DNA of 64,000 bases from Amycolatopsis australiensis (lineage in GTDB: Bacteria > Actinomycetota > Actinomycetes > Mycobacteriales > Pseudonocardiaceae), in assembly GCF_900119165.1 (NCBI RefSeq), contig NZ_FPJG01000006.1, positions 4,836,001 through 4,900,000 of the forward strand, written 5' to 3'. The position numbers and the translations under genes were made by a program. Of this stretch, positions 5,194 through 23,434 are shown in pieces (position 1 is the first letter of the stretch; each line of letters begins with the position of its first letter). The notes under the pieces were generated by a model. That model was given only the letters and a program-made list of their open reading frames with translations. It did not search any database and had not been told where the DNA came from.

Positions 5194-6345
5194 ATGAAGC
5201 ACGAGACGACCGGGCCGCTGGCGGGCGTGCGCGTGGTCGCGCTGGCCGGCATGGGGCCGACGCCGTTCGCGAGCATGCTGCTCGCGGACATGGGCGCGGA
5301 GGTGGTCCGGGTGACGCGGCCGGCGCACCGCCGCGGGCGGGCACTGGGCCAGACCGAGGGCCTGGCCCCCGAGCACGACCTCGCCAACCGCGGCGTGGAT
5401 ACGGTGGAGGCGGACCTGAAGAGCACCGCGGGGATCGCAACCGTGCTGCGGCTGGCCGACGCGGCGGACGTGTTCCTCGAAGGCTACCGGCCCGGCGTGG
5501 CCGAGCGGCTGGGCCTGGGCCCGGACGTGCTCCTGCGGCGCAACCCGGCCCTGGTGTACGCCCGGCTGACCGGTTACGGCCAGACGGGCCCGCTGGCCCG
5601 GCAGGCGGGGCACGACATCAACTACGTGGCCCAGTCGGGGGCACTGCACGCGATGGCCCGGGCCGGTGAGCCGCCGCGGCCGCCGGTCAACCTGCTGGGC
5701 GACTACGCGGGCGGCGCGCTGGTGGCGGCGTTCGGCGTCGTGTGCGCGATACTCGAAGCACGCGGTTCGGGCCGCGGCCAGGTGATCGACGCGGCGATGG
5801 TGGACGGAGTCGCGCTGCTGACGGCGAAGCTGCAGGGTCTGCGCGCGGCGGGCCGCTACGACGACGAGCCCGGCACGAACTACCTCGACTCCGGGGCGCC
5901 GTTCTACGACACCTACCGCTGCGCGGACGGCCGCTACCTCGCGGTGGGAGCACTGGAACCGGACTTCTACGCCGAGTTCCTGACCCGCCTGGGCACGGAC
6001 ACGAGCGGCTGGCCCGCGCAGGACGACCGCGCGGAGTGGCCGCGGCTGCGCGCGCTGATCGCGGCGGCGGTGTCGGCGAAAACACGCGACGAGTGGGCGG
6101 AGATCTACGCTGGCACGGACGCGTGCGTGACCCCGGTCCTGACGTTCGACGAAGCGGCCGAGCACCCGCACAACCGCGAGCGCGGGGTGTTCGCCCGGGT
6201 CGGCGGGGTGCTGCACCCGCGCCCGGCGCCCCGCCTGAGCCGCACCCCGGCGCGCGAGCCGCAGGCACCGGCCGGGGAGGTGCTGGACCCGGACCGGCTG
6301 GCCGGGGAATGGACGGCGCGCTCAGGCCGGCGGCGCTCGGCCTGA
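5194..6345 (+). CDS. Alpha-methylacyl-CoA racemase-like protein
   Basis: A 383-aa member of the CaiB/BaiF fold. The pattern AGHDINY with His140, followed 30 residues later by Asp170 in NLLGDYAGG, reproduces the His/Asp catalytic pair and spacing of alpha-methylacyl-CoA racemases. It is therefore more likely an epimerase of 2-methyl-branched acyl-CoAs than a CoA-transferase. Other conserved pieces: MGPTPFASMLLADMGAEVVRV, GYRPGVAERLGLGP and RLTGYGQTGPLA. A racemase fits degradation of a branched-chain substrate, since acyl-CoA dehydrogenases act on one epimer. GGAGGAAGAG precedes the ATG. Divergent from the GntR gene. Confidence 0.8.
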   Translation: MKHETTGPLAGVRVVALAGMGPTPFASMLLADMGAEVVRVTRPAHRRGRALGQTEGLAPEHDLANRGVDTVEADLKSTAGIATVLRLADAADVFLEGYRPGVAERLGLGPDVLLRRNPALVYARLTGYGQTGPLARQAGHDINYVAQSGALHAMARAGEPPRPPVNLLGDYAGGALVAAFGVVCAILEARGSGRGQVIDAAMVDGVALLTAKLQGLRAAGRYDDEPGTNYLDSGAPFYDTYRCADGRYLAVGALEPDFYAEFLTRLGTDTSGWPAQDDRAEWPRLRALIAAAVSAKTRDEWAEIYAGTDACVTPVLTFDEAAEHPHNRERGVFARVGGVLHPRPAPRLSRTPAREPQAPAGEVLDPDRLAGEWTARSGRRRSA

Positions 6346-6504: not shown

Positions 6505-6700
6505 GGCTGTGTCGGGGGCGATTGTGGCGGTTCGGTGTCGCGCTTGGCGGGTCGGCTGTGTCGGGAGCGATCGTGGCGGGGGTTCGGTGCGACGCCCGGC
6601 GTCCGGCAGTGATCGTGGCGGGGTTCGGTGCCGCGCCCGGCGCCTGGCCGTGTCGGCAGCGACCGCGGCCGGGGTTCAGTGCCGCGCCCGGCGGGCCGTT
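6505..6700. repeat. Degenerate tandem repeats, about four units
   Basis: The 330-bp gap between the racemase and the AraC gene contains about four diverged copies of a 42-53-bp unit. Each copy has the order TGTCGG..GCGAT..TGGCGG..TTCGGTG followed by a CGCGCC(C)GGCG stretch, starting near 6508, 6553, 6605 and 6650. The last copy runs into the 3' end of the AraC gene. No gene is credible here. The function is unknown; it could be a transcription-termination or spacer region. Confidence 0.55.
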
Positions 6701-7638
6701 TCCGAGGGCAGGGCACCGAACCGCTCCCGGTACTGCTGCGCGAACCGCCCGGGGTGGAAGAAGCCCCACGCCGCCGCGATCTCCGTGACCGAACGGGGGC
6801 CGCCCGCCAGCAGCTCGGCGTGCACCCGGTCCAGTCGCACCCCGCGCAGGTACGCGGTCGGGGACATGCCCACCACGTCGTGGAAGCCCGCCTGCAGCGC
6901 CCGCGCTCCGATGCCCGCCAGCGCCGCCAGGTCCGCCGTCGTGATCTCCTCCTCCGGGTGGCGGTCGATGTGGTCGACGATCTCCCGGATCTTCGAATGC
7001 CGCGTGTGCGCCGGCCGGCTGTGCAGGCTTTCGGTGAGCTGGCTCGGCACCGTCATCAGCAGCTGCGTCATCAACGCCGACTCCAGCTCGTGGCACGCCG
7101 CCGGGATCGTCGAGATCCCGCCTTCGCGGCTCAGCTCGGCGTACAGGAACCCCGCGGTCGCCACCAACGCCTGTCCCGTGCTCGACGCCAGCGGGAACGT
7201 CAGGTCGAACCGGATCTCCTCGCCGGCGGGGTGCCCGGTCAGCTTCGCCGCGTGCGCCTCCAGGAGGTCCTTCGGCAGCTTCACGTGGTACTGCCACGAA
7301 TCCGCGCTCCAGCGCACCAGCACGGGCGCGCGCGGCACGAACGCCACGCCGGCCTCACCCGCCGCGAAGGTCCGGCGGACACCGTTCTGCTCCACCGTGC
7401 TTTCGCCGGTGACCGGCAGGTTGACGTGGTAGCACAGCCGCATCGGCGGGCCGACGATCGTGGTGTCCGCGCCGTAGGACATCCGGCCGATCGTCAGGCG
7501 GGGCGCGGGCGCGATGTCCAGCCGGAATTTCAGCTCGCCCTGGTCGGCGACGTGCACGTCGTGGCTCGCGAACGTCTTGGTGACCTGTTCGCGCGCGACG
7601 TCGAGGTCCGCGGTGCGGAAGCTGAGCGGCTGAGCCAC
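6676..7638 (-). CDS. AraC family transcriptional regulator
   Basis: A 320-aa regulator. The N-terminal half (about 20-180) has the AraC_binding_2 cupin-like character. The C-terminal HTH_18 domain (about 215-315) contains ITTADLAALAGIGARALQAGF, then the second helix-turn-helix WGFFHPGRFAQQYRERFG. The GTG at 7638 has no Shine-Dalgarno sequence, and an AT-rich block lies immediately upstream, so a leaderless transcript is possible. It is divergent from the carboxylase-type operon starting at 7789 and probably activates it. Domains of this class often sense aromatic or small organic effectors. Confidence 0.9.
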   Translation of the reverse strand: MAQPLSFRTADLDVAREQVTKTFASHDVHVADQGELKFRLDIAPAPRLTIGRMSYGADTTIVGPPMRLCYHVNLPVTGESTVEQNGVRRTFAAGEAGVAFVPRAPVLVRWSADSWQYHVKLPKDLLEAHAAKLTGHPAGEEIRFDLTFPLASSTGQALVATAGFLYAELSREGGISTIPAACHELESALMTQLLMTVPSQLTESLHSRPAHTRHSKIREIVDHIDRHPEEEITTADLAALAGIGARALQAGFHDVVGMSPTAYLRGVRLDRVHAELLAGGPRSVTEIAAAWGFFHPGRFAQQYRERFGALPSETARRARH

Positions 7639-7788: not shown

Positions 7789-7992
7789 ATGACTGAACAA
7801 GCTCCGGTCCTCGACCGGATCCCCGTGGCCGGACCCTGTCCCCGGTGCGGCGCCGAAGAGCTGCACCGCTACCCCGTGGTGTCCGAAGGCGGCTGGTTCC
7901 AGGTCGTCAAGTGCCGGAACTGCCTGCTGTCGGTCGAGCGCGAACCGTGGTCGCGGCTCGGCCCGATCCAGCTGCTCTCCGACCTGCTGTAG
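7789..7992 (+). CDS. Small zinc-ribbon protein (possible carboxylase accessory subunit)
   Basis: A 67-aa protein with two CxxC knuckles, Cys17/Cys20 (CPRC) and Cys42/Cys45 (CRNC), separated by 21 residues, typical of a rubredoxin-like zinc ribbon. It starts the operon and ends 14 bp before HyuA. Acetone carboxylase and acetophenone carboxylase carry a small extra subunit besides their HyuA- and HyuB-like subunits; the acetone carboxylase gamma subunit binds zinc. By position this protein could play that role in reduced form. That is inference; it is much shorter than the known gamma subunits. Confidence 0.7.
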   Translation: MTEQAPVLDRIPVAGPCPRCGAEELHRYPVVSEGGWFQVVKCRNCLLSVEREPWSRLGPIQLLSDLL

Positions 7993-8006
7993 CGAAGGGA
8001 TCGACG

Positions 8007-10034
8007 ATGATCGCAGTCGACGTCGGCGGCACGTTCACCGATGTGGTGGCCCTCCAGGACGGGCGCATCCGCACGGCGAAGGTCTCCACCGACTACACCG
8101 GGGTCCACGGGCCGGTCCTCAAGGGCGCCGCGACCCTCGGCGTCGAGGACGCCACCGTGTTCAACCACGCCAGCACCCACGGCCTCAACGCCGTGATCAC
8201 CCGCCGGCTGCCCAAGATCGGCTTCCTGGCCACCGAAGGGCACCGCGACATCCTCGACATGGGACGGGTCTGGCGGCCCGCGTCGGCCATCCTCGACCCG
8301 CGCTGGCGGCGCAGCTTCGGCGACGCCGCCCGCCCGCTGGTCGAGCGCTACCTGCGCCGCGGCATCCGCGAGCGGATCACCGCCGGCGGCGGCGTCCTGT
8401 TCGAACTGGACGAGGAGCAGGCCCGCGCCGAACTCGAGGTGCTGCGGCGCTGCGACGTCTCCGGTGTCGCGATCTGCCTGCTCAACGCCTACGTCAACCC
8501 GGCGCACGAGCTGCGGCTGCGCGAGCTGGTCCGCGAGGTCGTCGGCGACGTCCCGTGCTCGGTCTCCAGCGAGGTCTCGCCGCTGGCGAAGGAGTACGCG
8601 CGGGCTTCGACCACGGTCGTGGACACCTTCATGAAGATCATCTACGCCGACTACACCGCCAAGCTCGAGAAGGGCCTCGCCGACCTCGGGTTCACCGGGC
8701 GGCTCAACTTCGCCGACTGCGCGGCGACGCTCGTCCCGGCCGGGCGGGCGATGGAGCAGCCGTTCCGGATCGTCTTCTCCGGCCCGGCCGCGGGCACCGT
8801 GGCGTGCGCGCACTTCGGCGCCCTCATCGGCGAGACCGACCTGCTCTGCGCCGACGTCGGCGGCACCTCGTGCGACATCAGTGTCGTCACGGCGGGGGAG
8901 CCGTTCGTCAACACGACGTTCGAGCTGGAGCACGACCTCGTGGTCAACGCGCTGGCCAACGACATCTCCAGCATCGGCGCCGGCGGCGGCAGCATCGTCG
9001 CGGTCGGGCCCGGTGGCGAGATCCAGGTCGGCCCGGACAGCGCCGGCGCGGCCCCCGGCCCGGCCTGCTACGGCCGGGGCGGCACCCGGCCGACCACCAC
9101 CGACACCTGCCTGATGATCGGCATCCTCGACCCCGGCCGGTTCGCCGGCGGCGAGGTCGCCCTCGACCCGGAGCTGGCGAAGCAGGCTTTCGAGAACCTC
9201 GATTCGGAGTTCACGCTCGCCCAGCGCGTGCGCTACGCCTACGAGATGGCCGTGAACAACATGGCCGAAGGCGTCTTCAACATCGCCATCAAGAACGGTG
9301 TCGACCCGCGCGACTACAGCCTCGTCGCCTACGGCGCGGCCGGCCCGATGCTGCTGCCCGCGGTGCTCGGCACCGTGCACTGCAAGCAGGTGATCGTGCC
9401 GCCGAACCCCGGCCTGTTCTCGGCGCTCGGCCTGCTGTCGGCCGACCAGGTCTTCACGGTCAACCGCAGCGCCTACCTCGTGCTCACGCCGGACGCGGCC
9501 CCGCGGATCGGCGAGCTGTTCGCCGAAATGGAAGCCCGGCTGCGCGAACGCCTCGACCCGGGCACCCGGGTGACGCTGCACCGCAGCATGGACGCCCACC
9601 TGGTCGGGCAGAGCTGGGAGACGCCGTTCGTGCCGGTGCCGGACGGCGAGATCGACGAGGCCGCCATCGCCGCGATGATCGCGTCGTTCCACGACACCTA
9701 CGAAGGCCGGTCGGGCAACCGCTTCGAGATGCTGCCCGTGGAAGGCGTGACCTTCCGCGTGCGGGCGGTGCTGGACACCCCGAAGGTGACCTACCCCGAG
9801 GTGCCCGGGCGCGGCGACGAGCCGCTCACGCCGGTCCGCACGACGGAGCTGCGCTACCTCGGCGAGGGCGAAAGCACCCAGGAGGCCGCCGTCTACGACC
9901 GCGCGGCGCTGCGCGCGGGCGACGTCCTCGACGGACCGGCCATCGTGGACGAAGGACTGTCCACCACGCACATCGGCGCCGGCCAGCGCGCGAGCGTCGG
10001 CCGCTACGGCGAACTCGTCATCCGGAGGAAGTGA
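8007..10034 (+). CDS. HyuA-type hydantoinase/oxoprolinase, acetone carboxylase beta-like
   Basis: A 675-aa ATP-dependent enzyme subunit of the hydantoinase A/oxoprolinase family. The N-terminal nucleotide-binding motif VDVGGTFTDVVALQDG comes at residues 3-18; the second motif DVGGTSCDISVV and the glycine loop SIGAGGGSI lie in the middle. The family phosphorylates a substrate carbonyl or lactam oxygen; in acetone and acetophenone carboxylases this drives carboxylation. The ATG at 8007 follows GAAGGGA, and the VDVGGTFTD motif normally starts the protein, so the longer open frame is ignored. Followed 5 bp later by HyuB. A ketone carboxylase is favoured over a hydantoinase because a zinc-ribbon gene, an acyl-CoA ligase and an SDR share the operon. 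Confidence 0.85.
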   Translation: MIAVDVGGTFTDVVALQDGRIRTAKVSTDYTGVHGPVLKGAATLGVEDATVFNHASTHGLNAVITRRLPKIGFLATEGHRDILDMGRVWRPASAILDPRWRRSFGDAARPLVERYLRRGIRERITAGGGVLFELDEEQARAELEVLRRCDVSGVAICLLNAYVNPAHELRLRELVREVVGDVPCSVSSEVSPLAKEYARASTTVVDTFMKIIYADYTAKLEKGLADLGFTGRLNFADCAATLVPAGRAMEQPFRIVFSGPAAGTVACAHFGALIGETDLLCADVGGTSCDISVVTAGEPFVNTTFELEHDLVVNALANDISSIGAGGGSIVAVGPGGEIQVGPDSAGAAPGPACYGRGGTRPTTTDTCLMIGILDPGRFAGGEVALDPELAKQAFENLDSEFTLAQRVRYAYEMAVNNMAEGVFNIAIKNGVDPRDYSLVAYGAAGPMLLPAVLGTVHCKQVIVPPNPGLFSALGLLSADQVFTVNRSAYLVLTPDAAPRIGELFAEMEARLRERLDPGTRVTLHRSMDAHLVGQSWETPFVPVPDGEIDEAAIAAMIASFHDTYEGRSGNRFEMLPVEGVTFRVRAVLDTPKVTYPEVPGRGDEPLTPVRTTELRYLGEGESTQEAAVYDRAALRAGDVLDGPAIVDEGLSTTHIGAGQRASVGRYGELVIRRK

Positions 10035-10039
10035 CCACC

Positions 10040-11962
10040 ATGGACACTCGTCTGCGCGACCTCTCCGACGAGGACTTCGCCGCCGCGTACGGCGGTGACC
10101 GGTTCACCTCGGCGGTCATCCTGAACCGCCTGCGGTACGCGGTGGAGCACATGTCGACCGGCTTCATGCGGGAGGCGTTCTCGCCGATCATCCGCGACTG
10201 GTACGACTTCGCCTGCACGATCAGCGGCCCACCGTCGGCCGGGTACCCGATGGCGGTGGTGAGCAACAGCCTGGTCGTCTTCCTCGGCACGCTCGGCGAC
10301 GCCGTGCGCAACACCGTCGAGGAGTACGGGCCGGAGAACCTCTCCCCGGGCGACGTGCTGATCTGCAACGACCCGTACCGCGGCGGCACGCACGTCAACG
10401 ACGTGTGCTTCATCCGCCCGGTCTTCGCCGGCGGCGAGATCGTCTCGTTCGTCAACATGCGCGCCCACCAGCTCGACATGGGCGGCACCGTGCCCGGCGG
10501 CTTCTCCGCCACGAAGTCCAATGTGTACGAAAACGGCCTGGTCATCCCGCCGATGCTGCTGTGGGCCGGGGACGAGCCGGTGCGCTCGACGTTCAGCCTG
10601 ATCTTCGACAACACCCGCTGGGGCGGCATGCTGCTGCCGGACTTCAAGAGCATCCACCAGCAGCTCAAGCTCGGCGAGCAGCTCGTGCTGGAGAACATCG
10701 GGCGCTACGGCCTCGACGCCTACCTCGGCACCCTCGCCTACGCCTGCGACACCTCGGCCGAGCGGATGCGCGAGGCCATCGCGCTGGTGCCGGACGGCGA
10801 CTACACCGGCTCGGCGCTCATCGACGCCGACGGCCTGGACGACACCGTCGACTACACGGTGCGCGTCACCCTGCGCAAGCGCGGGCAGGACGTCGAAGTC
10901 GACCTGTCCGGCACGTCGGCGCAGGCGCGGACGTGCATCAACTGCGGCGTGCTCGACGCCAAGACCGCCGCCGGGGTGGCGCTGACGATGCTGCTGGACC
11001 CCGAGGTGCCGTTCACCTCGGGCACCTGGCGCACCATCGACCTGGCCGTGCCGCCCGGAACGCTGGTGTCGTCGCTGCCGCCGGACGGCGGGATCATGAT
11101 GTTCTGGGAAGCGTCCGGCGCGGTCGTCTCGGCGATCTTCGACGCGCTCAACCCGGTGCTCGGCGCGAAGGGCGTCGCGGGCGACTACGGCTCGACGAAC
11201 ACGCACAACGCGTCCGGCCTGACCGCCGGCGGCACCCCCTGGACCAGCGCGACGCAGTGCGGTGGCGAGCACGGCCCGTGGGGCGCCACGAAGGAAGGCG
11301 ACGGTGACAGCTACACCGTCCTGTTCTTCCTGAACAACCTCGACCCGGCGACCGAGACGATCGAGCACGACGCCCCGGTCGTCATGCTCCGCAAGGAACA
11401 CGCGATCGACACCGGCGGGGCCGGCACGTTCCGCGGCGGCGCGGCGAACCTCAAGGACACGCTCTGGCTGGCCGACGCCAACCACTACCTTTCGCCGTTC
11501 CGGACGAAGGTGCCCAGTGGCGTGGGCGCCAACGGCGGCCAGGCCGGCCCGGCCGGGGCGATGTGGTTCTTCCCGCCCGGCGACCGCGAGCCGGGGCTGC
11601 TCGGCACCGGTAAGGACGTCTACGCGGCCAGCGTCCCCGTCGCGGGCGTGCTCGACCCGGAAACCAAGGCACTGGACCCGGAAAACGGCGTCTACCACTA
11701 CTTCGCCAGCCGGCCGGTGTGGCAGACGAAGGCCGGCACGGTCCTGCGGTGCGTCACCAACGGCGGCGGTGGCTGGGGCGACCCGTTCGCCCGCGACCCG
11801 GCCAGGGTGCTCGCCGACGTCCGCAACGAGTACGTCAGCGTCGAGGCCGCCGCCCGCGACTACGGCGTCGTCGTCACCGGCGACCCGCACCACGACCCGG
11901 AAGGCCTGCGCGTCGACGAGCAGGCCACCGCGAAACTCCGGACGAAGAGGACAACGGAATGA
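10040..11962 (+). CDS. HyuB-type hydantoinase/oxoprolinase, acetone carboxylase alpha-like
   Basis: A 640-aa subunit that pairs with HyuA. The family signature NDPYRGGTHVNDV lies near residues 112-124, with AVVSNSLVVFLGTLGD before it and GGGGWGDPFARDP near the C-terminus. In acetone carboxylase the homologous subunit carries the metal site for carboxylation. GGAGGA lies 10 bp before the ATG at 10040; a GTG at 10031 is too close to that ribosome-binding site. Its stop overlaps the next start (ATGA), showing translational coupling. Together the two subunits form the catalytic core of the operon. The true substrate (ketone, lactam or hydantoin) is not visible in the sequence. Confidence 0.85.
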   Translation: MDTRLRDLSDEDFAAAYGGDRFTSAVILNRLRYAVEHMSTGFMREAFSPIIRDWYDFACTISGPPSAGYPMAVVSNSLVVFLGTLGDAVRNTVEEYGPENLSPGDVLICNDPYRGGTHVNDVCFIRPVFAGGEIVSFVNMRAHQLDMGGTVPGGFSATKSNVYENGLVIPPMLLWAGDEPVRSTFSLIFDNTRWGGMLLPDFKSIHQQLKLGEQLVLENIGRYGLDAYLGTLAYACDTSAERMREAIALVPDGDYTGSALIDADGLDDTVDYTVRVTLRKRGQDVEVDLSGTSAQARTCINCGVLDAKTAAGVALTMLLDPEVPFTSGTWRTIDLAVPPGTLVSSLPPDGGIMMFWEASGAVVSAIFDALNPVLGAKGVAGDYGSTNTHNASGLTAGGTPWTSATQCGGEHGPWGATKEGDGDSYTVLFFLNNLDPATETIEHDAPVVMLRKEHAIDTGGAGTFRGGAANLKDTLWLADANHYLSPFRTKVPSGVGANGGQAGPAGAMWFFPPGDREPGLLGTGKDVYAASVPVAGVLDPETKALDPENGVYHYFASRPVWQTKAGTVLRCVTNGGGGWGDPFARDPARVLADVRNEYVSVEAAARDYGVVVTGDPHHDPEGLRVDEQATAKLRTKRTTE

Positions 11963-12684
11963 TTCCCGCCTTCGAGCACCGCACGCTGTTCTTCGCCTTC
12001 TGCACCTTCACCGGCGAACGCGAGACGTTCGACCGCTGGTACGACGAAGAGCACATCCCGCAGGTGATGGACACGACCGGCATGGTCGGCGCCCAGCGGT
12101 TCGTGGTCGCGGACACCAAGCCGCTGGCCGGCACCGAACCGGTCGACTTCGGGCACGCGGCCCTGTACGAACTGGACGGCAGCCCCGCGGGCTTCCGCGA
12201 AGAGGTCAAGCGGATGCTCATGTCCGGCGACATGGTGCTGCCGGAGTTCATGGTCCAGCCGTTCACGGCCCTGTTCCTGGAGCCGGTGAGCGAACCGCAC
12301 CACAGCGACCGCTTCGCCGGGCTCACCGACCTCGACGACCGGCATCTCTGGCTGGTCTTCAGCGAGCGCCCGGAGCAGCCCGAAGCCTACGACAAGTGGT
12401 ACGACGAGGAACACATCCCGCAGGTCCTGGCCGCGCCGGGGTTCGTGCGCGCGCAGCGGTTCGTCACCTCCGGCGTCAAGCCGCTGCCGGGTGTCGTGAC
12501 GCCCGAAGTGAGCCACCTGGCGATCTACGAGACCATCGGGGACCTCGGCCCGATGCGCGAGGACGTCAAGCGGCAGCTGGTCTCCGGGGAGATGGTCCTG
12601 CCCGAGTTCATGAAGCTGCCGTTCGGCTCGATGTTCCTGCGGCCGGTGAGCCCGTTCTTCCCGGCGAAGGGAGCCGGCTCGTGA
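11959..12684 (+). CDS. Tandem dimeric alpha-beta-barrel (EthD-like) protein
   Basis: A 241-aa protein made of two copies of one domain. Each copy has a WYDEEHIPQV segment, an AQRFV strand and a GxMVLPEFM..PF stretch. Copies span about residues 5-108 and 118-228. The WYDEEHIP motif is typical of small ferredoxin-fold proteins of the dimeric alpha-beta-barrel superfamily, which normally dimerise; here two units are fused into one chain. It overlaps HyuB and the next ALDH by 4 bp on both sides. Known relatives act on hydrophobic ketones or quinones or have no known activity. A role in handling the carboxylation substrate or product is possible; the function is not established. Confidence 0.75.
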   Translation: MIPAFEHRTLFFAFCTFTGERETFDRWYDEEHIPQVMDTTGMVGAQRFVVADTKPLAGTEPVDFGHAALYELDGSPAGFREEVKRMLMSGDMVLPEFMVQPFTALFLEPVSEPHHSDRFAGLTDLDDRHLWLVFSERPEQPEAYDKWYDEEHIPQVLAAPGFVRAQRFVTSGVKPLPGVVTPEVSHLAIYETIGDLGPMREDVKRQLVSGEMVLPEFMKLPFGSMFLRPVSPFFPAKGAGS

Positions 12685-14132
12685 TCGTCGCCGACGTGGT
12701 GGTGCCGCACCCGGACGAGGTGTTCGTGGCCGGGGAGTGGGTGGCCGCCGGAGACTCCGGCGAGGTCGTCTCGCCGGCCACCGGCCGCCCGGTCGCCGAG
12801 GTCGGGCTGCCGTCCGAGAAGCACGCCCTCGCCGCCGTCCAGGCCGCCCGCGACGCCCTGGCCACCTGGGCCGAACTGCCGGTGGCTCGCCGCGTCGAGA
12901 TCTGCGGCCGGTTCTGCGCGGCGATGGAAGCCCGCCTGGACGACCTCGGGACCGTGTGGGCGGTCGAGTCCGGGATGCCGGTCCGCTACAGCCGCACCCT
13001 GCACAGGTTCGCCGCGGTCGCCGCTTGGCGGACGCTGCTGGAGTCCGCCGGGAACGTCCTGTGCGACGACTCCCGCGAGTCCGCGCTCGGCGCCATCGTG
13101 CTGCGGCGCGAGGCGGCGGGCGTGGTCGCGGCCGTCATCGCCTACAACGGCCCCCTGGTCACCGTCGCCAGCAAGGTCCTCCCGGCCCTGCTGGCCGGGT
13201 GCCCGGTGATCGTCAAGGCCGCGGTGGAATCGCAGCTGATCATGCGCATCGTCGCCGACTGCGCGGCCGGGGCCGGCTTCCCGGCGGGCGCGCTGAGCAT
13301 CCTCTGCGGCGACGCGGAGCTCGGCCGGACGCTCACCGCGCACCCGGCCGTCGACATGGTGTCGCTGACCGGCGGCCGGATGGCCGCCCAGGCGATCATC
13401 GAGGCCACCCGGCACCGGTTCGCCCGCACCCACCTGGAGCTGGGCGGCAAGTCCCCGGCGCTGATCCTCGACGACGCCGACCCGGCCGTCGTGCTCAAGA
13501 CGCTGGTCCCCGGCGCGACCAGCGGCGGCGGCCAGGTCTGCGCGGCACTGTCGCGGATCCTGGTGCCCGAGCGGCGCCACGACGAGTTCGTCGCGCTGCT
13601 CGAGCAGGCGTGGGAGGGCCTGGTCATCGGCGATCCGCTGGACCCGCGCACCCAGCTCGGGCCGCTGGCGTCGCCGGCGGTCGTCGAGCGCACCGAGGGC
13701 TTCCTCGCCCGTGCCGTCGCCGACGGCGCCCGCGTGGTGACCGGCGGCCGCCGCCCGGCCGGGTTCGACGGCGGCTGGTGGTTCGAGCCGACGCTCGTCA
13801 CCGGCGTCGCCCGCGACTCCGACCTGGCGCAGAACGAGGTGTTCGGGCCGGTCACCGCCGTGCTGACGTACGCGGACCCCGAAGACGGGCTGCGGCTGGC
13901 CAACGACACGTCGTACGGGCTGTCCGCCAGCGTCTACACCGCCGACGAGGCGAAAGGCGTCGAGTACGCCCGCCGGATCCGGGCGGGCTCGGTCGCGGTC
14001 AACGCGTTCGGCCCGGCGCTCACCGCGCCCTTCGGCGGGGTGAAGGGGTCGGGCTGGGGCCGCGAGGCGGGCCCGGAAGGCATCCTCGAGTTCACCGAGC
14101 TGAAGCAGATCCTGCTCGGAGGCCGGCGATGA
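12681..14132 (+). CDS. Aldehyde dehydrogenase
   Basis: A 483-aa ALDH starting at GTG 12681, overlapping the previous stop. Motifs: AYNGPL in the cofactor region, VSLTGG where FTGS is usual, LELGGKSPALIL with the general-base Glu, and GGGQVCAALSRI with the nucleophilic Cys; the C-terminal APFGGVKGSGWGREAG is intact. The replacement of the FTGS phenylalanine and final serine is mildly unusual. It is embedded in the carboxylase-type operon, so it probably oxidises an aldehyde of the same pathway. Confidence 0.9.
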   Translation: MIVADVVVPHPDEVFVAGEWVAAGDSGEVVSPATGRPVAEVGLPSEKHALAAVQAARDALATWAELPVARRVEICGRFCAAMEARLDDLGTVWAVESGMPVRYSRTLHRFAAVAAWRTLLESAGNVLCDDSRESALGAIVLRREAAGVVAAVIAYNGPLVTVASKVLPALLAGCPVIVKAAVESQLIMRIVADCAAGAGFPAGALSILCGDAELGRTLTAHPAVDMVSLTGGRMAAQAIIEATRHRFARTHLELGGKSPALILDDADPAVVLKTLVPGATSGGGQVCAALSRILVPERRHDEFVALLEQAWEGLVIGDPLDPRTQLGPLASPAVVERTEGFLARAVADGARVVTGGRRPAGFDGGWWFEPTLVTGVARDSDLAQNEVFGPVTAVLTYADPEDGLRLANDTSYGLSASVYTADEAKGVEYARRIRAGSVAVNAFGPALTAPFGGVKGSGWGREAGPEGILEFTELKQILLGGRR

Positions 14133-15661
14133 CGTTCCCGTGGATCCTCGACGCCGCGCCGCGGCGCGACCGGGTCGCGCTCAGCTTCGACGCCCGGGTC
14201 CGGCTCACCTACGGCGAGCTGGACGAGCTGACCCTGCGCTACGCCCGCGCCCTGCGCGAACTCGGGCTGCGCAAGGGCGACCGGCTCGGCCTGCTGCTGT
14301 ACAACGACCCCGAGTACGTGCCGCTGTACCTCGCGGCCGCGAGGCTCGGGCTGATCACCGTCCGGCTGAACTTCCGGCTCGCACCCGCCGAAGTGGAGTT
14401 CATCCTGGCCGACTCCGGAGCGTCGGTGGTCGTCGTGCACGGCAGCCTGGCCGGCCGCGTCGAGCCGGTGCCGGCGCGGACGTACGTGGTGCTGCCGGAC
14501 ACCGGCGTGGTGCCGGAGTGGGCGCGGCCGTTCGACGTCCTTCGCGGACACCGGCCGCTGTCCCGGGACCAGCTGCCGGAGCTGTCCGAACGGGACCCGA
14601 TGAGCCTGCTCTACACCTCCGGCACCACCGGTTCGCCGAAGGGCGCGGTGTGGACGCACCGGAACACCGTCGCGGTGGCGACGGCCCAGGCCCTGCGGTG
14701 GCAGTTCGCCGAAGACACCGTCGCGCTCGTGCCCGGCCCGACCTACCACGCGGGCGGGTTCGAGGCGGTGATCGCGCCCGCGTTGCTGATGCACGGCCGC
14801 GGCGTCTTCCTGCCTTCGGGGAACTTCACGGTCGACCGGCTGCTCGCCGTGCTGCGTGCCGAGCGGGTGACCGATTGCCTGCTGTTCCCGTTCATGCTCG
14901 ACGAACTCCTGCACAAGCCCGGCCTCGAGCTGCCGCCGCCGGTGCGGCGGCTGATCCTCGGCGGTGACACGCTGATGCCCTCGACCGCCCGGGAAGTCAA
15001 GCGGCGCTGGCCGGACGTCAAGCTCACCCAGGTCTACGGCCTCACCGAAGGCGGCGCGATCGCGACCACCCTGGAGGACGCGGACTTCCTGGCGCAGCCG
15101 AAGAGCATCGGCCGCCCGGTGCCGCTGGCGGAGGCGCGGGTGGTGGGCCCGCTCGGCGACGCGGCCGCGGTCGGCGAAGTGGGCGAGATCGAGGTACGCG
15201 GCCCGGCGGTGAGCGAGGGCTACTGGAACCGCCCGGAAGCGACGCGGGCGACGTTCCACGACGGCTGGTGCCGCACCGGCGACCTCGGCTACTTCAACGC
15301 GGACGGCTTCCTGCACCTCGCCGGCCGGGCGAAGGACATGATCCGCAGCGGCGGGGAGAACATCTACCCGGCCGAGGTCGAAAAGGTGCTGGCGACGCAC
15401 CCGCGGGTGCGGGAAGCGGCGGTGGTCGCGGTCCCGGACGAGCGCTACAGCGAGGTCGGCTGCGCGATCGTCGTGCCGGAGCCGGGCGCCGCGCCGGACG
15501 ACCTGGCGGCGTTCTGCCGGGCGCGGCTGGCCGGGTACAAGGTGCCGCGGTACTTCGTCTTCGTGACCGAGCTGCCGCGCAACGCCTCGGGAAAGATCCT
15601 GAAATTCCGGCTGCGCGAGGAATACGCGGCCATCGGTTCCGCGGAAAGGGCGGCGACATGA
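14129..15661 (+). CDS. AMP-forming acyl-CoA synthetase
   Basis: A 510-aa ANL-family ligase. The P-loop YTSGTTGSPKGAVWTHRN lies at about 166-183, YGLTEGG in the middle, TGDLGYFNADGFLHLAGRAKDMI near 385-405, and the catalytic lysine in PRNASGKILKFRL near the C-terminus. It activates a carboxylate to the CoA thioester via an adenylate. Coupled by ATGA to the ALDH before it and to the SDR after it. In anaerobic acetophenone degradation a CoA ligase follows the carboxylase and activates benzoylacetate, so a beta-keto acid is a plausible substrate here (inference). Confidence 0.9.
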   Translation: MTFPWILDAAPRRDRVALSFDARVRLTYGELDELTLRYARALRELGLRKGDRLGLLLYNDPEYVPLYLAAARLGLITVRLNFRLAPAEVEFILADSGASVVVVHGSLAGRVEPVPARTYVVLPDTGVVPEWARPFDVLRGHRPLSRDQLPELSERDPMSLLYTSGTTGSPKGAVWTHRNTVAVATAQALRWQFAEDTVALVPGPTYHAGGFEAVIAPALLMHGRGVFLPSGNFTVDRLLAVLRAERVTDCLLFPFMLDELLHKPGLELPPPVRRLILGGDTLMPSTAREVKRRWPDVKLTQVYGLTEGGAIATTLEDADFLAQPKSIGRPVPLAEARVVGPLGDAAAVGEVGEIEVRGPAVSEGYWNRPEATRATFHDGWCRTGDLGYFNADGFLHLAGRAKDMIRSGGENIYPAEVEKVLATHPRVREAAVVAVPDERYSEVGCAIVVPEPGAAPDDLAAFCRARLAGYKVPRYFVFVTELPRNASGKILKFRLREEYAAIGSAERAAT

Positions 15662-16440
15662 GCAAGCTGGTGCTGGTGAGCGGTGCGGCGGGCGGCGTCG
15701 GCTCGGCGACGGCCCGCCGCTTCGCCGCGGACGGCGCGAAGGTGGCCCTGACGGACATCGACGCGGACCGGCTGAAGGTAGTGGCGGACGAAGTCGGCGG
15801 GCTCGCCCTGCCCGCGGACGGCACCCGGCGCGACGAGGTCGCCGCGGTGGTCCGCCGGGCGGTCGCCGAGCTGGGCGGCCTGGACACGGTGATCGCGGCG
15901 CAGGGCGCGGCGGTGTCGGGCACCGCGAGCCCGAAGGCGGACGACGCCTGGTTCCGGGCGTTCGACGTCAACCTGCACGGCTCGTTCTACCTGGCGAGCG
16001 AGGCGCTGCCGCACCTGGTTCCGCGCCGCGGCTCGCTGGTGCTGTTCGCGTCGACGGCGGGCTTGCTCTCGGGGCCGCCGGGTACCGCCGGCTACAGCGC
16101 GGCGAAGGCGGGGGTGATCGGCCTGGTGCGCTGGCTGGCCCGCGACTTCGGGCCGCGGGGCGTGCGGGTCAACGGCGTCTGCCCCGGCTGGGTGCGCACC
16201 CCGCTGGGCGACGGCGCGATGCGGTACCTCGCCGAGCGGGAGGGCATCGCGGTCGAGGAGGCCTACCGCCGCGTGGCCGAGCACGTCCCGCTGCGGCGGG
16301 TGGCCGAGCCGGCGGAGATCGCCGCGGTGTGCGCGTTCCTGGCGTCGGCGGACGCGTCGATCGTGACCGGGCACGTCCTGGTCGCCGACGGCGGCGGCGC
16401 GGCGGTCGACCCGGCGACCACGCTGTTCGACCAGGGGTGA
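15658..16440 (+). CDS. Short-chain dehydrogenase/reductase
   Basis: A 260-aa SDR with the NAD(P) motif SGAAGGVG at residues 8-15, a Ser in the catalytic strand SLVLFASTAG, and the catalytic YSAAK. The C-terminal GHVLVADGGG is typical. It closes the carboxylase-type operon and overlaps the ligase by 4 bp. It could oxidise a secondary alcohol to the ketone that HyuAB would carboxylate, as 1-phenylethanol dehydrogenase does upstream of acetophenone carboxylase, or act on a 3-hydroxyacyl-CoA. The two cannot be separated from the sequence. Confidence 0.88.
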   Translation: MSKLVLVSGAAGGVGSATARRFAADGAKVALTDIDADRLKVVADEVGGLALPADGTRRDEVAAVVRRAVAELGGLDTVIAAQGAAVSGTASPKADDAWFRAFDVNLHGSFYLASEALPHLVPRRGSLVLFASTAGLLSGPPGTAGYSAAKAGVIGLVRWLARDFGPRGVRVNGVCPGWVRTPLGDGAMRYLAEREGIAVEEAYRRVAEHVPLRRVAEPAEIAAVCAFLASADASIVTGHVLVADGGGAAVDPATTLFDQG

Positions 16441-16496
16441 TCGGGCCGGGACCTCGAGCGGGCGCGATCCGCGGGGGATGACAGCCTGGTGCCTCG

Positions 16497-16516
16497 TAGT
16501 ATATATTTTATATTCA
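16497..16516. promoter_or_regulatory. AT-rich operator-like site 4 (lyase operon promoter)
   Basis: AGTATATATTTTATATTCAG lies 25 bp before the lyase start, just upstream of its AAGGAG ribosome-binding site. ATATTTTATAT at 16503-16513 is the exact reverse complement of the element at 3140-3150. It probably acts as promoter -10 and operator for the lyase operon. Confidence 0.6.
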
Positions 16517-16540
16517 GCACCGGATGTCGAAGGAGATGCG

Positions 16541-17428
16541 ATGAAGCCCTACCGCTCGATGCTTTTCGTCCCCGGGCACAAGGGATCCTGGGCGGACAAG
16601 GGTGTCGCGTCCGGGGCGGACGCCCTGATCCTCGATCTCGAGGACTCCGTTCCCGCCGCCGGGAAGGAGCAGGCCCGGGTCACGGTCGCCGAGACGATCG
16701 ACCGGCTGCACGGCGCCCGGCCCGATCTGTGGGTGCGCGCCAATCCCGAGGTCAGCGGCCTGCTCGGCGCCGACCTCGAAGCAGTCGTCCGGCCGGGCCT
16801 GACCGGGCTGTTCCTCGCGAAGGTCTTCGACGCCCAGGAGATCGTCCGCCTCGACGCCGTCCTCACCCACATCGAGCAGCGGGACGGCCTCGAACCCGGA
16901 GCCGTGCGGCTGATCGTCTCCTACGAGACCGCGTCCTCGATGGCGCACTGCGAGGAAATCGCGGGCGCCAGCCCGCGAGTCGCTTCGCTGCTGGGGGCCA
17001 CCGGGCCGAACGCCGACGTCGGCCGCGAGCTCGGGTTCGAGTTCACCCCGGCCGGCCTGGAGACGCTCTACCTGCGCAGCCGGCTCGTCCTCGCCGCCCG
17101 TGCGAACGGCCTGCACCACCCGGTCACCGGCGTCTGGCAGGACATCAAGGATCTCGACGGCTGTCGGCGGTTCTGCCTGGACAACCGCGCCCTCGGCTAC
17201 CGCGGCCTGGTCGCCATCCACCCCTCGCACGTGGCGGTCGCCAACGAGGTGTTCTCGCCGACGCCGGAGCAGGTCGACCACGCGCGCCGGATGATCGCCG
17301 CCTTCCGGGCGGCCGAGGCCGCGGGCAGCGCCGCCGTCGACTTCGAGGGCCAGCACATCGACATCGCGCACGTGAAGACCGCCGAGGGCGTGATCGCGCT
17401 CGCCGACGCGATGGCCGTGCACGCCTGA
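16541..17428 (+). CDS. HpcH/HpaI (CitE-like) CoA-ester lyase
   Basis: A 295-aa protein of the citrate lyase beta / malyl-CoA lyase family. Visible: MLFVPGHKGSW at the N-terminus, DALILDLEDSVP (about 27-38), LWVRANP, and VAIHPSHVAVANEVFSPT near 225-242. The usual active-site stretch is replaced by YETASSMAH and LLGATGPNADVG, so the subgroup is unusual. Reaction: Mg-dependent cleavage of a 3-hydroxyacyl-CoA such as citramalyl-, malyl- or methylmalyl-CoA into acetyl- or propionyl-CoA and an oxo acid. It starts an operon with a MaoC hydratase resembling mesaconyl-CoA hydratase, which fits hydration followed by cleavage. AAGGAG lies 5 bp before the ATG. Confidence 0.87.
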   Translation: MKPYRSMLFVPGHKGSWADKGVASGADALILDLEDSVPAAGKEQARVTVAETIDRLHGARPDLWVRANPEVSGLLGADLEAVVRPGLTGLFLAKVFDAQEIVRLDAVLTHIEQRDGLEPGAVRLIVSYETASSMAHCEEIAGASPRVASLLGATGPNADVGRELGFEFTPAGLETLYLRSRLVLAARANGLHHPVTGVWQDIKDLDGCRRFCLDNRALGYRGLVAIHPSHVAVANEVFSPTPEQVDHARRMIAAFRAAEAAGSAAVDFEGQHIDIAHVKTAEGVIALADAMAVHA

Positions 17429-17456
17429 CCACCTCCACCGAGAAGGGAACCCCGCC

Positions 17457-17921
17457 ATGCCAGGTCTGTACTTCGAAGAGTTCGAGCCCGGGATGGTCAT
17501 CGACCACCCGACCCGCCGCACGGTCACCGAGGCCGACAACACGCTGTTCAGCGTCATGACGCTCAACCTCGCCCCGCTGCACCTGGACGCCGAGTACAGC
17601 AAGAACTCGATCTACGGGCAGCGGCTGGTCAACAGCCTGTTCATCCTCGGCCTGGTCTCCGGGGTCACCGTGCCGGAGACCACGCAGGGCACCACGCTCG
17701 GCAATCTCGGCTTCGAGCAGATCAAGTTCCCCAAGCCGGTGTTCCACGGCGACACGATCCACGTGCGCACCGAGATCGTCAGCAAGCGGGAGTCGAAGAG
17801 CCGCGGCGACTCCGGCATCGTCATGTTCCGCCACCTCGGGCTCAACCAGCGCGACGAGATCGTCTGCGACGCCCTGCGCGCGGGCCTGATGCTGAAGAAG
17901 CCGGTCGCGGCGCATGCCTGA
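17457..17921 (+). CDS. MaoC-type hydratase, mesaconyl-/itaconyl-CoA hydratase-like
   Basis: A 154-aa hot-dog protein. The stretch LNLAPLHLDAEY followed by YGQRLVNSLFILGLVSG, and later FPKPVFHGDTI and VSKRESKSR, resembles mesaconyl-CoA (2-methylfumaryl-CoA) hydratases rather than generic enoyl-CoA hydratases. Predicted reaction: reversible addition of water to a branched unsaturated CoA ester, giving the substrate of the lyase encoded 28 bp upstream. It overlaps the next gene by 8 bp. Together with the lyase it forms the core of an itaconate- or mesaconate-type module. Substrate choice is inference. Confidence 0.85.
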   Translation: MPGLYFEEFEPGMVIDHPTRRTVTEADNTLFSVMTLNLAPLHLDAEYSKNSIYGQRLVNSLFILGLVSGVTVPETTQGTTLGNLGFEQIKFPKPVFHGDTIHVRTEIVSKRESKSRGDSGIVMFRHLGLNQRDEIVCDALRAGLMLKKPVAAHA

Positions 17922-19812
17922 GTTCGCCTGGGTACCGGACGACGCGGTCCGGCAACGCAGCAGGCTGCCGGCCGCCTTGCGGAAGTGGGGCATCGCCGAC
18001 GTCACCGAGCTGAACGAGCGGGCCATCGCGGACCCCGAGTGGTTCTGGCGCGCGGTCGTCGAGGACCTGGACATCGGCTTCACGACGCCGTTCGAGCGCG
18101 TGCTCGACGAGTCCGCGGGCAAGCCGTTCCCGAAATGGTTCCCCGGCGGCCGGATCAACGTCGCCGACCTCGCCGTGCGCGGCGAACCCGGAAAACTCGC
18201 CGTGGTCTACGAAGGCGACTCCGGGCAGCGCCGGACGCTCACCTTCGCCGAGCTGGACGCGCAGGTGCGCCGGTTCGCCGCCAACCTGGCCGCGCTCGGG
18301 GTGTCCCGTGGTGACCGCGTCGTGCTGTTCATGCCCGTGGTGCCCGAAGCCGCCGTCGCGTTCCTGGCGGTCGCGAAGCTCGGCGCCATCTCGGTGCCCG
18401 CCTTCAGCGGCTACGCGGCCGACGCCCTGGCGACCCGATTGCAGGACTCCGAAGCCGTCGCGCTCATCACCGCCGACGGCACCACCCGGCGCGGCAAGGA
18501 GGTCCCGCTCAAGGCGACCGCCGACGCCGCGCTCGAGGACGCGCCGGACGTGCGCACGGTGGTCGTCGTCCGGCACCTGGGCACCGACGTGCCGATGCGG
18601 GCCGGCCGGGACGTCTACTTCGACGAACTCGGCGAAGCACCGCCGGTCGAGACCGCGCCGACCGAGTCGAACGACCCGCTGACGATCGTCTACACCTCGG
18701 GCACCACCGGCCGTCCCAAGGGGATCGTGCACTCACACGGCGGTTTCGCGGTGAAGACGGCGACCGACTTCGCATACGGCTTCGACACCCACGCCGACGA
18801 CGTCGTCTGCTGGATCACGGACCTCGGCTGGCTGGTCGGCCCGATGCTCATCACCGGGCCGCTGCAGCTGGGCGCGACGATCGTCATGGCCGAAGGCCTG
18901 CCCACGCATCCCACGCCGGAGCGGCTGTGGGACGTCGCCGAGCGCAACGGCGTCACCGTGCAAGGCATCGCGCCGACGGCGGCCCGGGCACTGCGGGCGG
19001 CTTCGGAAACGCCGTCGCACACCCTGAGCACGCTGCGGTCGTTCGTCTCCACCGGCGAAGCCTGGGACGAGCCGACGTGGTGGTGGCTGTTCGACCAGGT
19101 CGGCAAGCGGCGCGTGCCGATCGTCAACTACAGCGGCGGCACCGAGGTCGGCGGCGGCATCCTGGTCGGCTACCCGTTCCTGCCCGCCGCGCCCGCGGCG
19201 TTCACCGGCGCCTTGCCCGGCGTCGACGCGGCCGTCCTGGACGACGACGGCAAGCCGGTGACCGGCGCGATCGGCGAGCTGGCCGTGCGGAACACGTTCC
19301 CCGGCATGACGCACGCGTTCTGGCACGACCGGGAGCGGTACCTGGAGACGTACTGGTCGCGCTTCGACGGCGTGTGGGTCCACGGCGATCTGGCCAGTGT
19401 GGACGCTGACGGCTCGTGGCTGATCCACGGTCGTTCCGACGACACGCTGAAGCTCGCCGGCCGCCGGGTCGGCCCGGCCGAGATCGAGGCCGCGCTGCTG
19501 CGCGACGAGCGGATCGCCGAAGCCGCGGTGATCGGCGCACCCGACGAACGTCGTGGCCAGCGCGCGGTCGCGTTCGTGGTGGTGAAGGGGTCAGTGGACC
19601 TCGACGATCTGCGCGCGACGGCGCTGGCGAACGCCGGGCGGTCGTTCGCCCCTGAAGTGCACGTCGTGGCGACGCTGCCGAAGACCAAGAACGGCAAGAT
19701 CATGCGCCGCGCGATCCGGGCGCGGTTCACCGGATCCCCGGTGGGCGATCTGTCCTCTTTGGACCCGTCGACCCCGCTCGAGGCCATCCCCGAAGACCAG
19801 GAGAAACGATGA
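17914..19812 (+). CDS. Acetyl-/propionyl-CoA synthetase-type acyl-CoA ligase
   Basis: A 632-aa AMP-forming synthetase with an N-terminal extension like acetyl-CoA synthetase (PEWFWRAVVEDLDI). Motifs: YTSGTTGRPKGIVHSHGG, NYSGGTEVGGGI, HGDLASVDADGSWLIHGR, DDTLKLAGRRVGPAEIE and KTKNGKIMRRAIRA with the catalytic lysine. It activates a short-chain acid to the CoA thioester. The position between a MaoC hydratase and an acyl-CoA dehydrogenase (4-bp overlap) suggests it primes the substrate for dehydrogenation, or recovers a short acid product. Confidence 0.88.
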   Translation: MPEFAWVPDDAVRQRSRLPAALRKWGIADVTELNERAIADPEWFWRAVVEDLDIGFTTPFERVLDESAGKPFPKWFPGGRINVADLAVRGEPGKLAVVYEGDSGQRRTLTFAELDAQVRRFAANLAALGVSRGDRVVLFMPVVPEAAVAFLAVAKLGAISVPAFSGYAADALATRLQDSEAVALITADGTTRRGKEVPLKATADAALEDAPDVRTVVVVRHLGTDVPMRAGRDVYFDELGEAPPVETAPTESNDPLTIVYTSGTTGRPKGIVHSHGGFAVKTATDFAYGFDTHADDVVCWITDLGWLVGPMLITGPLQLGATIVMAEGLPTHPTPERLWDVAERNGVTVQGIAPTAARALRAASETPSHTLSTLRSFVSTGEAWDEPTWWWLFDQVGKRRVPIVNYSGGTEVGGGILVGYPFLPAAPAAFTGALPGVDAAVLDDDGKPVTGAIGELAVRNTFPGMTHAFWHDRERYLETYWSRFDGVWVHGDLASVDADGSWLIHGRSDDTLKLAGRRVGPAEIEAALLRDERIAEAAVIGAPDERRGQRAVAFVVVKGSVDLDDLRATALANAGRSFAPEVHVVATLPKTKNGKIMRRAIRARFTGSPVGDLSSLDPSTPLEAIPEDQEKR

Positions 19813-22077: not shown

Positions 22078-22446
22078 TCAGCCCGCGGCGTCCAGCCGCA
22101 CGGTGGACCCGGCCGCCGCCGGGGCGAGCATCGGCTCCAGCGAGCTCGGCTGGCTCCGGTACTTGGCCCGGTAGGCGGCGTCGACCTCGGTGTTCGCCGA
22201 CGGCTCGGGCGTGAGGGTCACGTCGGTCTCGACGCCGTTCGCCCGGATCCGCGCGGCCCGGTTCTTCATCGCATTGCGGTACCAGCCGCCTTCGGAACCG
22301 TAGGCGGAGCGGATGTACAGCTCGTCACCCACACGGACGACCCAGATCGGTGTCCAGCGGCGGGCGGTGCCGTCCTCCCGCAGGCTCGTGATGTGCAGCT
22401 CCGGCGTCGAGCCGAGGCGGTCGAGCACGTCATTGTCCCAGGTCAT
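22078..22446 (-). CDS. DUF2255 family protein
   Basis: A 122-aa protein with the DUF2255 pattern: an N-terminal HITSLREDGTARRWTPIWVVRVGDELYIRSAYG, then GWYRNAMKN and a C-terminal DAAYRAKYRSQ. Relatives resemble small split-barrel flavin-binding nitroreductase/pyridoxamine oxidase proteins, and a flavin or F420 role is possible. It overlaps the XRE gene by 17 bp and is translationally coupled to it. Confidence 0.8.
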   Translation of the reverse strand: MTWDNDVLDRLGSTPELHITSLREDGTARRWTPIWVVRVGDELYIRSAYGSEGGWYRNAMKNRAARIRANGVETDVTLTPEPSANTEVDAAYRAKYRSQPSSLEPMLAPAAAGSTVRLDAAG

Positions 22447-23302: not shown

Positions 23303-23434
23303 GACCCGAGCCTAAGCCCGCTCCGGGCGTCGATGCAGGGGCTGGCGGTACCCCCGATAGGCGGCCTCTGCCACGCGCACGTGAACCGCCGCAGGGTGGA
23401 AGGCGAACCACCACCGACGACACAAGGAGTGACC

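Follow-up and report, generated by a model that had tools for sequence, protein, structure and literature searches.

Enzymes that pair a HyuA-type ATP-binding subunit with a HyuB-type metal-site subunit (HyuAB) are widespread, as indicated by a PF01968 match over the cut-off in 33 of 60 genomes sampled across the Actinomycetota, and few of them have been characterized (excerpt of PMC5214803). Among the closest described systems, the acetophenone carboxylase ApcABCDE of Aromatoleum (PDB 5L9W) combines ATP and metal subunits of these types with a small four-cysteine subunit, in a pathway with an alcohol dehydrogenase and a CoA ligase, and the acetone carboxylase AcxABC (PDB 5SVB, 5M45) follows a three-subunit logic. 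The caprolactamase CapAB (PDB 6YRA) and N-methylhydantoinase (PDB 7HK5) consist of two subunits or of a fused protein and have no small subunit; the same excerpt describes two-subunit Hyd enzymes as lacking the gamma subunit that Acx and Apc possess (PMC5214803). Here, we describe a seven-gene operon of Amycolatopsis australiensis (contig NZ_FPJG01000006.1), located at 7789-16440 on the + strand of the 64,000-nucleotide stretch that was analyzed (positions 4,836,001 to 4,900,000 of the contig, referred to below as the window). It lies within a 9.3-Mb genome, and the nearest named relatives of its HyuA are from Amycolatopsis. The operon very probably encodes a three-subunit variant of HyuAB acting in a pathway from alcohols or carbonyls to acyl-CoA; for the reaction of HyuAB itself, ATP-dependent ketone carboxylation is our leading guess by analogy, with a probability of roughly 0.4. 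The open reading frame (ORF) list and a Pfam scan placed the seven genes in one array:

7789-7992, + strand, zinc-ribbon small subunit, VdcD-like (67 aa; ORF with two CxxC knuckles, CPRC...CRNC)
8007-10034, + strand, HyuA, ASKHA-type ATP-binding subunit (675 aa; Pfam Hydantoinase_A, E 8.8e-67)
10040-11962, + strand, HyuB, metal-site subunit (640 aa; Pfam Hydantoinase_B, E 1.2e-122)
11959-12684, + strand, tandem ferredoxin-like barrel protein (241 aa; DUF4286, 1e-6; EthD, 4e-6)
12681-14132, + strand, aldehyde dehydrogenase (ALDH) (483 aa, GTG start; Pfam Aldedh, E 1.6e-124)
14129-15661, + strand, AMP-forming acyl-CoA ligase (510 aa; Pfam AMP-binding, 8.1e-78, plus AMP-binding_C)
15658-16440, + strand, short-chain dehydrogenase/reductase (SDR) alcohol dehydrogenase (260 aa; Pfam adh_short_C2, E 1e-55)

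The zinc-ribbon gene is separated from HyuA by 14 bp, and HyuA from HyuB by 5 bp (an alternative GTG start at 10031 is possible for HyuB); the four junctions that follow (HyuB/barrel, barrel/ALDH, ALDH/ligase, and ligase/SDR) overlap by 4 bp. The genes are thus chained as an original prediction, made from the window alone, had read them. A search of genome contigs with HyuA gave 330 HyuA-encoding loci, of which the best 80 (HyuA 57-91% identical) span Actinomycetota, Pseudomonadota, Myxococcota, and Bacillota. The order of the window was found again in L009-L011, L015-L018, L023, and L035, and because it repeats in other loci the seven-gene set is not a chance array. The prediction that the seven genes act together is further supported by a second operon type (L208), in which all seven kinds recur reordered as HyuA, HyuB, small subunit, ligase, barrel, ALDH, and SDR. 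Its proteins are 35% (HyuA), 36% (ligase), 43% (small subunit), 63% (barrel), 63% (ALDH), and 72% (SDR) identical to those of the window, and since barrel, ALDH, and SDR are better conserved than HyuAB, the same kind of substrate is suggested for both operon types. Amycolatopsis keratiniphila (L165) carries the second type without ALDH. In 10 of 82 loci, a second-clade HyuB is present alongside the first cluster, and two HyuAB systems, only about 35% identical, lie at most about 15 kb apart in L015-L022, L025, L035, L042, L065, and L067 (Nocardia, Amycolatopsis, and Actinomycetospora).

The small-subunit gene was present in 79 of the 80 loci, 77 times directly upstream of HyuA, as in the window and unlike the A-B-C order of Acx with its gamma subunit downstream, and twice after HyuB. 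The one exception, L056, was scored on a second HyuA copy, and the small gene lies further upstream in the same operon. No small subunit was found near any of 27 HyuA ORFs, taken as the best PF01968 locus per genome in the 60-genome phylum-wide sample, within 1.5-kb flanks that were set around the Pfam match, so that a small gene after HyuB would be missed. It was equally absent within about 15 kb in 20 control loci; these were hand-picked from the HyuAs of the 60-genome sample and of 40 genomes of the host and its relatives, nearly all already seen without the small subunit in 1.5-kb flanks, so that this circular choice merely extends the earlier absence and 0/27 is the less circular figure. 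No small subunit accompanied any of ten HyuA ORFs at seven Acx/Apc-type loci. The small subunit stood within 2.6 kb of 97 of 164 HyuA ORFs, some genes having been fetched twice; the ORFs without it include L132 (the same gene as L166, with the small gene farther off), the second copy of L056, and a second-clade row of L035 cut by the locus end. The gene of the predicted third subunit thus recurs with HyuAB, and its linkage argues that the 67-aa protein is a genuine HyuAB partner; from the 79 loci we infer a three-subunit complex of small subunit, HyuA, and HyuB.

The AlphaFold model of the small subunit (predicted local distance difference test score [pLDDT] of 89) is a three-stranded ribbon with strands E25-32, E35-42, and E48-53, and C17, C20, C42, and C45 are invariant in 44 aligned small subunits, an alignment picked from the cysteine form. 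No Pfam match over the cut-off was obtained. The best PDB profile match was VdcD (E 0.8), with an hhalign probability of 92-95% over about 50 residues, although this used a two-sequence VdcD profile and generic ribbons score similarly in HMMER. VdcD/ShdD (PDB 7AE4, 7AE5, and 7AE7) is the essential zinc-ribbon activator of the UbiD-type decarboxylase VdcC, which uses prenylated flavin mononucleotide (prFMN), and it resembles the small subunit in its two CxxC knuckles and its length of about 70 aa. The small subunit differs in having HyuAB rather than a prFMN enzyme as its partner (there is no UbiD-type decarboxylase among the operon genes), in carrying its own conserved motifs, YPVxSEGGW and LGPI, and in missing the 30-bit cut-off of the VdcD model NF041205, where the window protein scored 16.0 bits and the highest of seven members compared 25.1. 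Among the 94 copies collected (87 distinct), the cysteines were kept in 74 and lost in 20 (18 distinct) with the remainder conserved, and the two forms matched at 99.6% in hhalign. Because the cysteine-less copies keep the rest of the sequence, the small subunit matters beyond zinc.

Cysteine-less copies were seen at L045-L047, L050-L052, L057, L058, L062, L064, L066, L068-L070, L073, L075, L077, L078, L084, and L086; they keep a YPVLSEGGW...LGPI core and represent a natural zinc-free version of the protein. The idea of a shrunken Acx/Apc gamma subunit was ruled out by profile comparison (hhalign 3-8%). In Foldseek, chain 5l9w_C was found with a template modeling (TM) score of 0.48, the highest of 50 rows, at E 5.9, and 5svc_C at E 6.6, both too weak to count; neither was among the 50 rows of a second look. 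The label PF26358, carried by some relatives, may already name the small-subunit family. Among the matches listed, no open-access title or abstract opening described a zinc-ribbon subunit of HyuAB; the nearest mention, in an excerpt of PMC10470539, is of HyuAB of unassigned role in actinobacterial microcompartment loci. At L096 (G121) and L097 (G112), PF08882 (carboxylase gamma) lies in long open frames of 1266 and 801 aa; the L097 frame looks HyuB-like by eye, which points to a possible gamma-HyuB fusion at that locus.

All HyuAs accompanied by a small subunit fell into one clade of a 111-row tree (99% in the Shimodaira-Hasegawa-like approximate likelihood ratio test, SH-aLRT), together with two unlabelled rows, L132 and the second copy of L056. 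In a 43-row tree containing 15 rows from the clade, its support was 100/99 and it was recovered in 100% of 200 bootstrap trees. The HyuA-type proteins of Acx and Apc formed separate clades (100/100 each), with 5M45 within that of Acx. The window HyuA belongs to neither the clade of 7HK5 nor that of CapA; a firm placement among N-methylhydantoinases or oxoprolinases, which would have refuted the original prediction, was not obtained, and the protein sits in a clade of its own among the hydantoinase-like members of the family, on the hydantoinase/caprolactamase side. Across 40 genomes (the host and its relatives), it was 64% identical to its own paralogue, 90-91% to three orthologues, and at most 38% to all others, and this drop from 64% to ≤38% bounds the subfamily sharply. 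The best-scoring solved relatives were N-methylhydantoinase (7hk5) for HyuA and the caprolactamase subunit CapB (6yra) for HyuB. They are distant, since HyuA reached 327 and 223 bits against solved relatives of the CapAB/N-methylhydantoinase kind and 1511 bits against itself. NCBIfam equivalog cut-offs were missed for CapA (354 of 1000 bits, the best NCBIfam model for HyuA), CapB (187 of 1000), ApcC (255 of 1500), and ApcD (111 of 1500).

The active-site residues are conserved. The HyuA ATP motif residues D5, G7, G8, D12, D283, G285, G286, and T287 were found in all 94 HyuAs of the loci and T9 in 93, the motifs being equal to those of CapAB and N-methylhydantoinase; in the GxxPGP motif, the first Gly was present in 86 of the 94 and the last two PGP residues in all. 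The HyuB metal ligands D56, H118, D121, and H143 were found in 79/79 HyuBs of the clade and 10/10 of the second clade, and are equivalent to D41/H99/D102/H124 of CapB (excerpt of PMC8453981). Elsewhere, the metal site has Gln at the last position in the 7HK5 enzyme and Glu (Glu89) at the first in acetone carboxylase, which otherwise has ligands in common with the window. The ASKHA ATP motifs and the D/H/D/H site are hydantoinase/lactamase features, but they are not diagnostic because carboxylases share them. Since the metal and ATP residues are common to lactamases and carboxylases, carboxylation is undecidable from sequence. Bicarbonate dependence alone would not prove it either, because CapAB also depends on bicarbonate (excerpt of PMC8453981), which shows, by analogy, that the two chemistries lie close on the HyuAB scaffold.

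The gene context was compared between 20 clade loci, chosen for full flanks and spread and including the window and its own paralogue, and the 20 control loci, by Pfam on 118 clade and 114 control genes from script-made gene calls, the sets differing in taxa. Within three genes, an SDR was found in 15/20 clade loci versus 2/20 other HyuAB loci (Fisher, 7e-5) and an ALDH in 9/20 versus 1/20 (Fisher, 0.008), while the difference for the AMP-ligase, 8/20 versus 2/20, was not significant (Fisher, 0.065). The control set is the important comparison because SDRs are common in such genomes: that of the host has 145 PF13561 matches, although several are fragmentary or belong to very long frames. Amidase, Amdase, and DAO (2, 3, and 2 of 114 genes) were among the 25 commonest families of control neighbors and not among the 25 commonest of clade neighbors, where one or two cases could be hidden. 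At two near-identical loci (L062 and L064), SDR, ligase, small subunit, HyuA, HyuB, SDR, and thiolase follow one another with other genes interspersed, the thiolase being on the same strand a few genes downstream, an order that nearly matches the acetophenone degradation logic. The acetophenone-type logic of the original prediction is supported by the enrichment of SDR and ALDH and by the thiolase of L062/L064, the ligase being more frequent but not significantly so. From the genes around it, HyuAB appears to be surrounded by alcohol and carbonyl chemistry, for which this context speaks.

The AlphaFold model of the barrel protein (pLDDT 94.9) consists of two tandem ferredoxin-like domains, both of which contain an invariant WY...H (the motif WYDEEHIP is repeated), an arrangement found in bacterial chalcone isomerase and an anthrone oxidase-like protein, both of aromatic carbonyl chemistry, and also in sulfur oxygenase reductase. 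There was no sequence match to any PDB chain, and the fold is common to many functions. The catalytic base of chalcone isomerase is His33 (excerpt of PMC9694015), and the barrel has an invariant His, H32, in helix 1; the correspondence is a lead rather than a test. The gene is dedicated to this context: it occurs in 7 copies in 5 of 298 genomes of the order (E up to 1e-20), and every copy lies in a cluster that also has the small subunit and HyuAB, 5 directly beside HyuB and 2 in the second operon type (L165 and L208). For ALDH, ligase, and SDR, all NCBIfam models shown were below their cut-offs (best 25 of 42, 107 and 226, the first for ALDH), and no substrate was readable. The SDR has an Asp after beta-2, which we take to suggest NAD.

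In the pathway that we propose, the SDR would convert a secondary alcohol to a ketone, and HyuA would use ATP to phosphorylate the enol of this ketone, and possibly also bicarbonate, the activated species passing to the metal site of HyuB. There, the ketone would be carboxylated to a beta-keto acid, by analogy to the acetone and acetophenone carboxylases. The zinc-ribbon subunit may dock on the complex as an activator, like VdcD on VdcC, as its profile and fold suggest. The AMP-ligase would form the CoA ester, which could be cut by a thiolase or, in the window, by the downstream set of acyl-CoA dehydrogenase (ACAD), MaoC, and HpcH. The barrel protein would probably provide acid-base chemistry on a related intermediate with a carbonyl group, and ALDH would remove an aldehyde. 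In its most ambitious form, which we put forward tentatively, the proposal is that the clade represents a third lineage of ketone carboxylases that depend on ATP and not on biotin, arisen from the HyuAB hydrolase side independently of Acx and Apc, with an essential VdcD-type zinc-ribbon activator of the kind that switches on prFMN (de)carboxylases, and placed in a dedicated alcohol-ketone-acyl-CoA pathway across the four phyla.

Several results weigh against ketone carboxylation. In the 43-row tree rooted on Acx, a node with 100/98 support joined the clade to CapA, N-methylhydantoinase, and further proteins of hydantoinase-like type and left out both Acx and Apc. HyuA is not in the acetone/acetophenone carboxylase branch, and the tree position speaks against carboxylation by descent. 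The window HyuA retains GxxPGP, a motif lost from acetone carboxylase. The operon has a single HyuA, with no second kinase subunit for bicarbonate, unlike Apc with its two alpha subunits (alpha and alpha'); the acetophenone carboxylase subunit make-up is thus not reproduced, and the gene order differs as well. Nor is the small subunit of the acetone/acetophenone carboxylase type: it gave no PF08882 (Acx gamma) match at E up to 10, hhalign values of only 5% against eight PF08882 proteins and 3-8% against Apc gamma, and the operon has no Apc gamma homologue. The loss of cysteines in 20/94 small subunits (18/87 distinct) means that zinc is not essential everywhere. Searching with one query each for thiolases, CMD-family proteins, and Baeyer-Villiger monooxygenases (BVMO), we found thiolase to be rare, near L062, L064, L080, and L010 only, and in the Pfam comparison it accounted for 2/114 control neighbor genes without being among the 25 commonest clade families. 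In three gammaproteobacterial loci (L036, L037, and L041), an Amidohydro_3 gene is the divergent neighbor.

The position of HyuA on the hydrolase side would suit an ATP-dependent enzyme that hydrolyzes or cleaves a nitrogen-free ring, a reading that we consider somewhat less likely than carboxylation. HyuA would activate a lactone, cyclic ketone, or diketone, HyuB would use metal-bound water to open it, and the hydroxy or oxo acid so formed would go to SDR, ALDH, and ligase, which suit the processing of an opened ring. Flavin monooxygenases were detected near seven loci (L020, L029, L054, L070, L073, L084, and, more weakly, L066; the two scanned are FMO-like by Pfam); these FMO/BVMO-type enzymes presumably act on ketones and, being HAPMO-like by sequence, would, we assume, yield lactones or esters by Baeyer-Villiger oxidation. 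On the other hand, the literature sections covered described no ATP-dependent enzyme of the family with such a substrate, and, to our knowledge, lactones normally need no ATP for opening.

An ordinary ATP-dependent cyclic amide or imide hydrolase of the hydantoinase, lactamase, or oxoprolinase type, with the ribbon as an accessory, is improbable. The best solved relatives of both subunits and the best NCBIfam model, CapA, are of this kind, CapAB shares the need for bicarbonate (excerpt of PMC8453981), and the divergent Amidohydro_3 gene of the three gammaproteobacterial loci would fit. But the CapA score is far below its cut-off and the clade is separate, no nitrogen-handling gene is among the operon's own genes, and Amidase, DAO, and Amdase rank among the commonest neighbors for the controls and not for the clade. 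That the small subunit is a merely linked zinc-ribbon protein outside the enzyme, for instance a regulator, is very improbable given its near-constant presence in two placements and two clades and its conservation even after cysteine loss.

If ketone carboxylation is the true reaction, biotin-free ATP-dependent carboxylation evolved more than once on the HyuAB scaffold, and CO2-fixing biocatalysis would gain a simple three-subunit enzyme. If the complex is not a carboxylase, a small zinc subunit next to HyuAB can no longer be taken as the mark of a carboxylase. Under either outcome, a well-delimited clade that has a small subunit, recurring neighbors, and a dedicated barrel offers a testable handle on part of the unassigned HyuAB family.

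Around the operon, the window contains the following genes:

5194-6345, + strand, CaiB-type CoA-transferase, upstream (Pfam; sequence cluster in 11/82 loci including the window)
6676-7638, - strand, divergent AraC-type regulator (Pfam; sequence cluster in 24/82 loci including the window)
16478-17428, + strand, HpcH/CitE-like C-C lyase (Pfam; sequence cluster in 5/82 loci including the window)
17457-17921, + strand, MaoC-type hydratase (Pfam; sequence cluster in 7/82 loci including the window)
17914-19812, + strand, acetyl-CoA-synthetase-like ligase (537 bits to NCBIfam acetate--CoA ligase, under its cut-off of 657)
19809-20969, + strand, ACAD (Pfam)

The AraC-type gene is the probable regulator of the operon. 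The transcript may extend past the SDR because four more genes follow on the + strand at small gaps (37 bp from SDR to HpcH and 28 bp from HpcH to MaoC) or overlaps (8 bp between MaoC and the acetyl-CoA-synthetase-like gene and 4 bp between the latter and ACAD). The MaoC, HpcH, and ACAD of the window were found again in Burkholderia (L030) and in a gammaproteobacterial metagenome-assembled genome (MAG; L053), and the set is a possible lower pathway resembling itaconate degradation. HpcH/CitE-like lyase, MaoC, and ACAD genes, with CaiB in some cases, recur beside the small subunit and HyuAB (window, 16478-20969; L053, 14079-19959; L030, 1-2451; L059, 2684-6551). The acetyl-CoA-synthetase-like protein was considered as an acetoacetyl-CoA synthetase partnering acetone carboxylase and rejected, as it scores higher as an acetate--CoA ligase, below the cut-offs shown. 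Genes of the MmgE/PrpD family were seen at 249-1637 of the window and at the edge of the L053 locus (21443-22016).

The Amidohydro_3 gene (577 aa, scanned in L036) stands upstream of the small subunit and HyuAB on the opposite strand in gammaproteobacterial MAGs; it is adjacent in L036, L037, and L041 and one gene further away in L054 and L055. Loci L037-L039 are titled as a Klebsiella pneumoniae MAG; L038 and L039 group with other gammaproteobacterial MAGs in the tree, and the label looks doubtful. CMD-family proteins were found near eight loci. In Neobacillus vireti (L082, 7164-9628), the small subunit and HyuAB are preceded by two CMD-like stretches and two SDRs. These match a CMD-SDR-SDR set located downstream of the same genes in Amycolatopsis and Prauserella, a linkage that crosses phyla.

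The host genome has a second cluster (L005, 7929-18553; 7.25-7.27 Mb on the same contig) without the barrel. Near both clusters, a helix-turn-helix regulator of the MLTR_LBD type is divergent from alpha/beta-hydrolase genes (window, 22430-24346; L005, 5001-7884). The second cluster is 64% (HyuA), 53% (HyuB), 57% (small subunit), and 57% (ALDH) identical to that of the window, and it also contains ligase, SDR, CaiB, and nitronate-monooxygenase-family genes.

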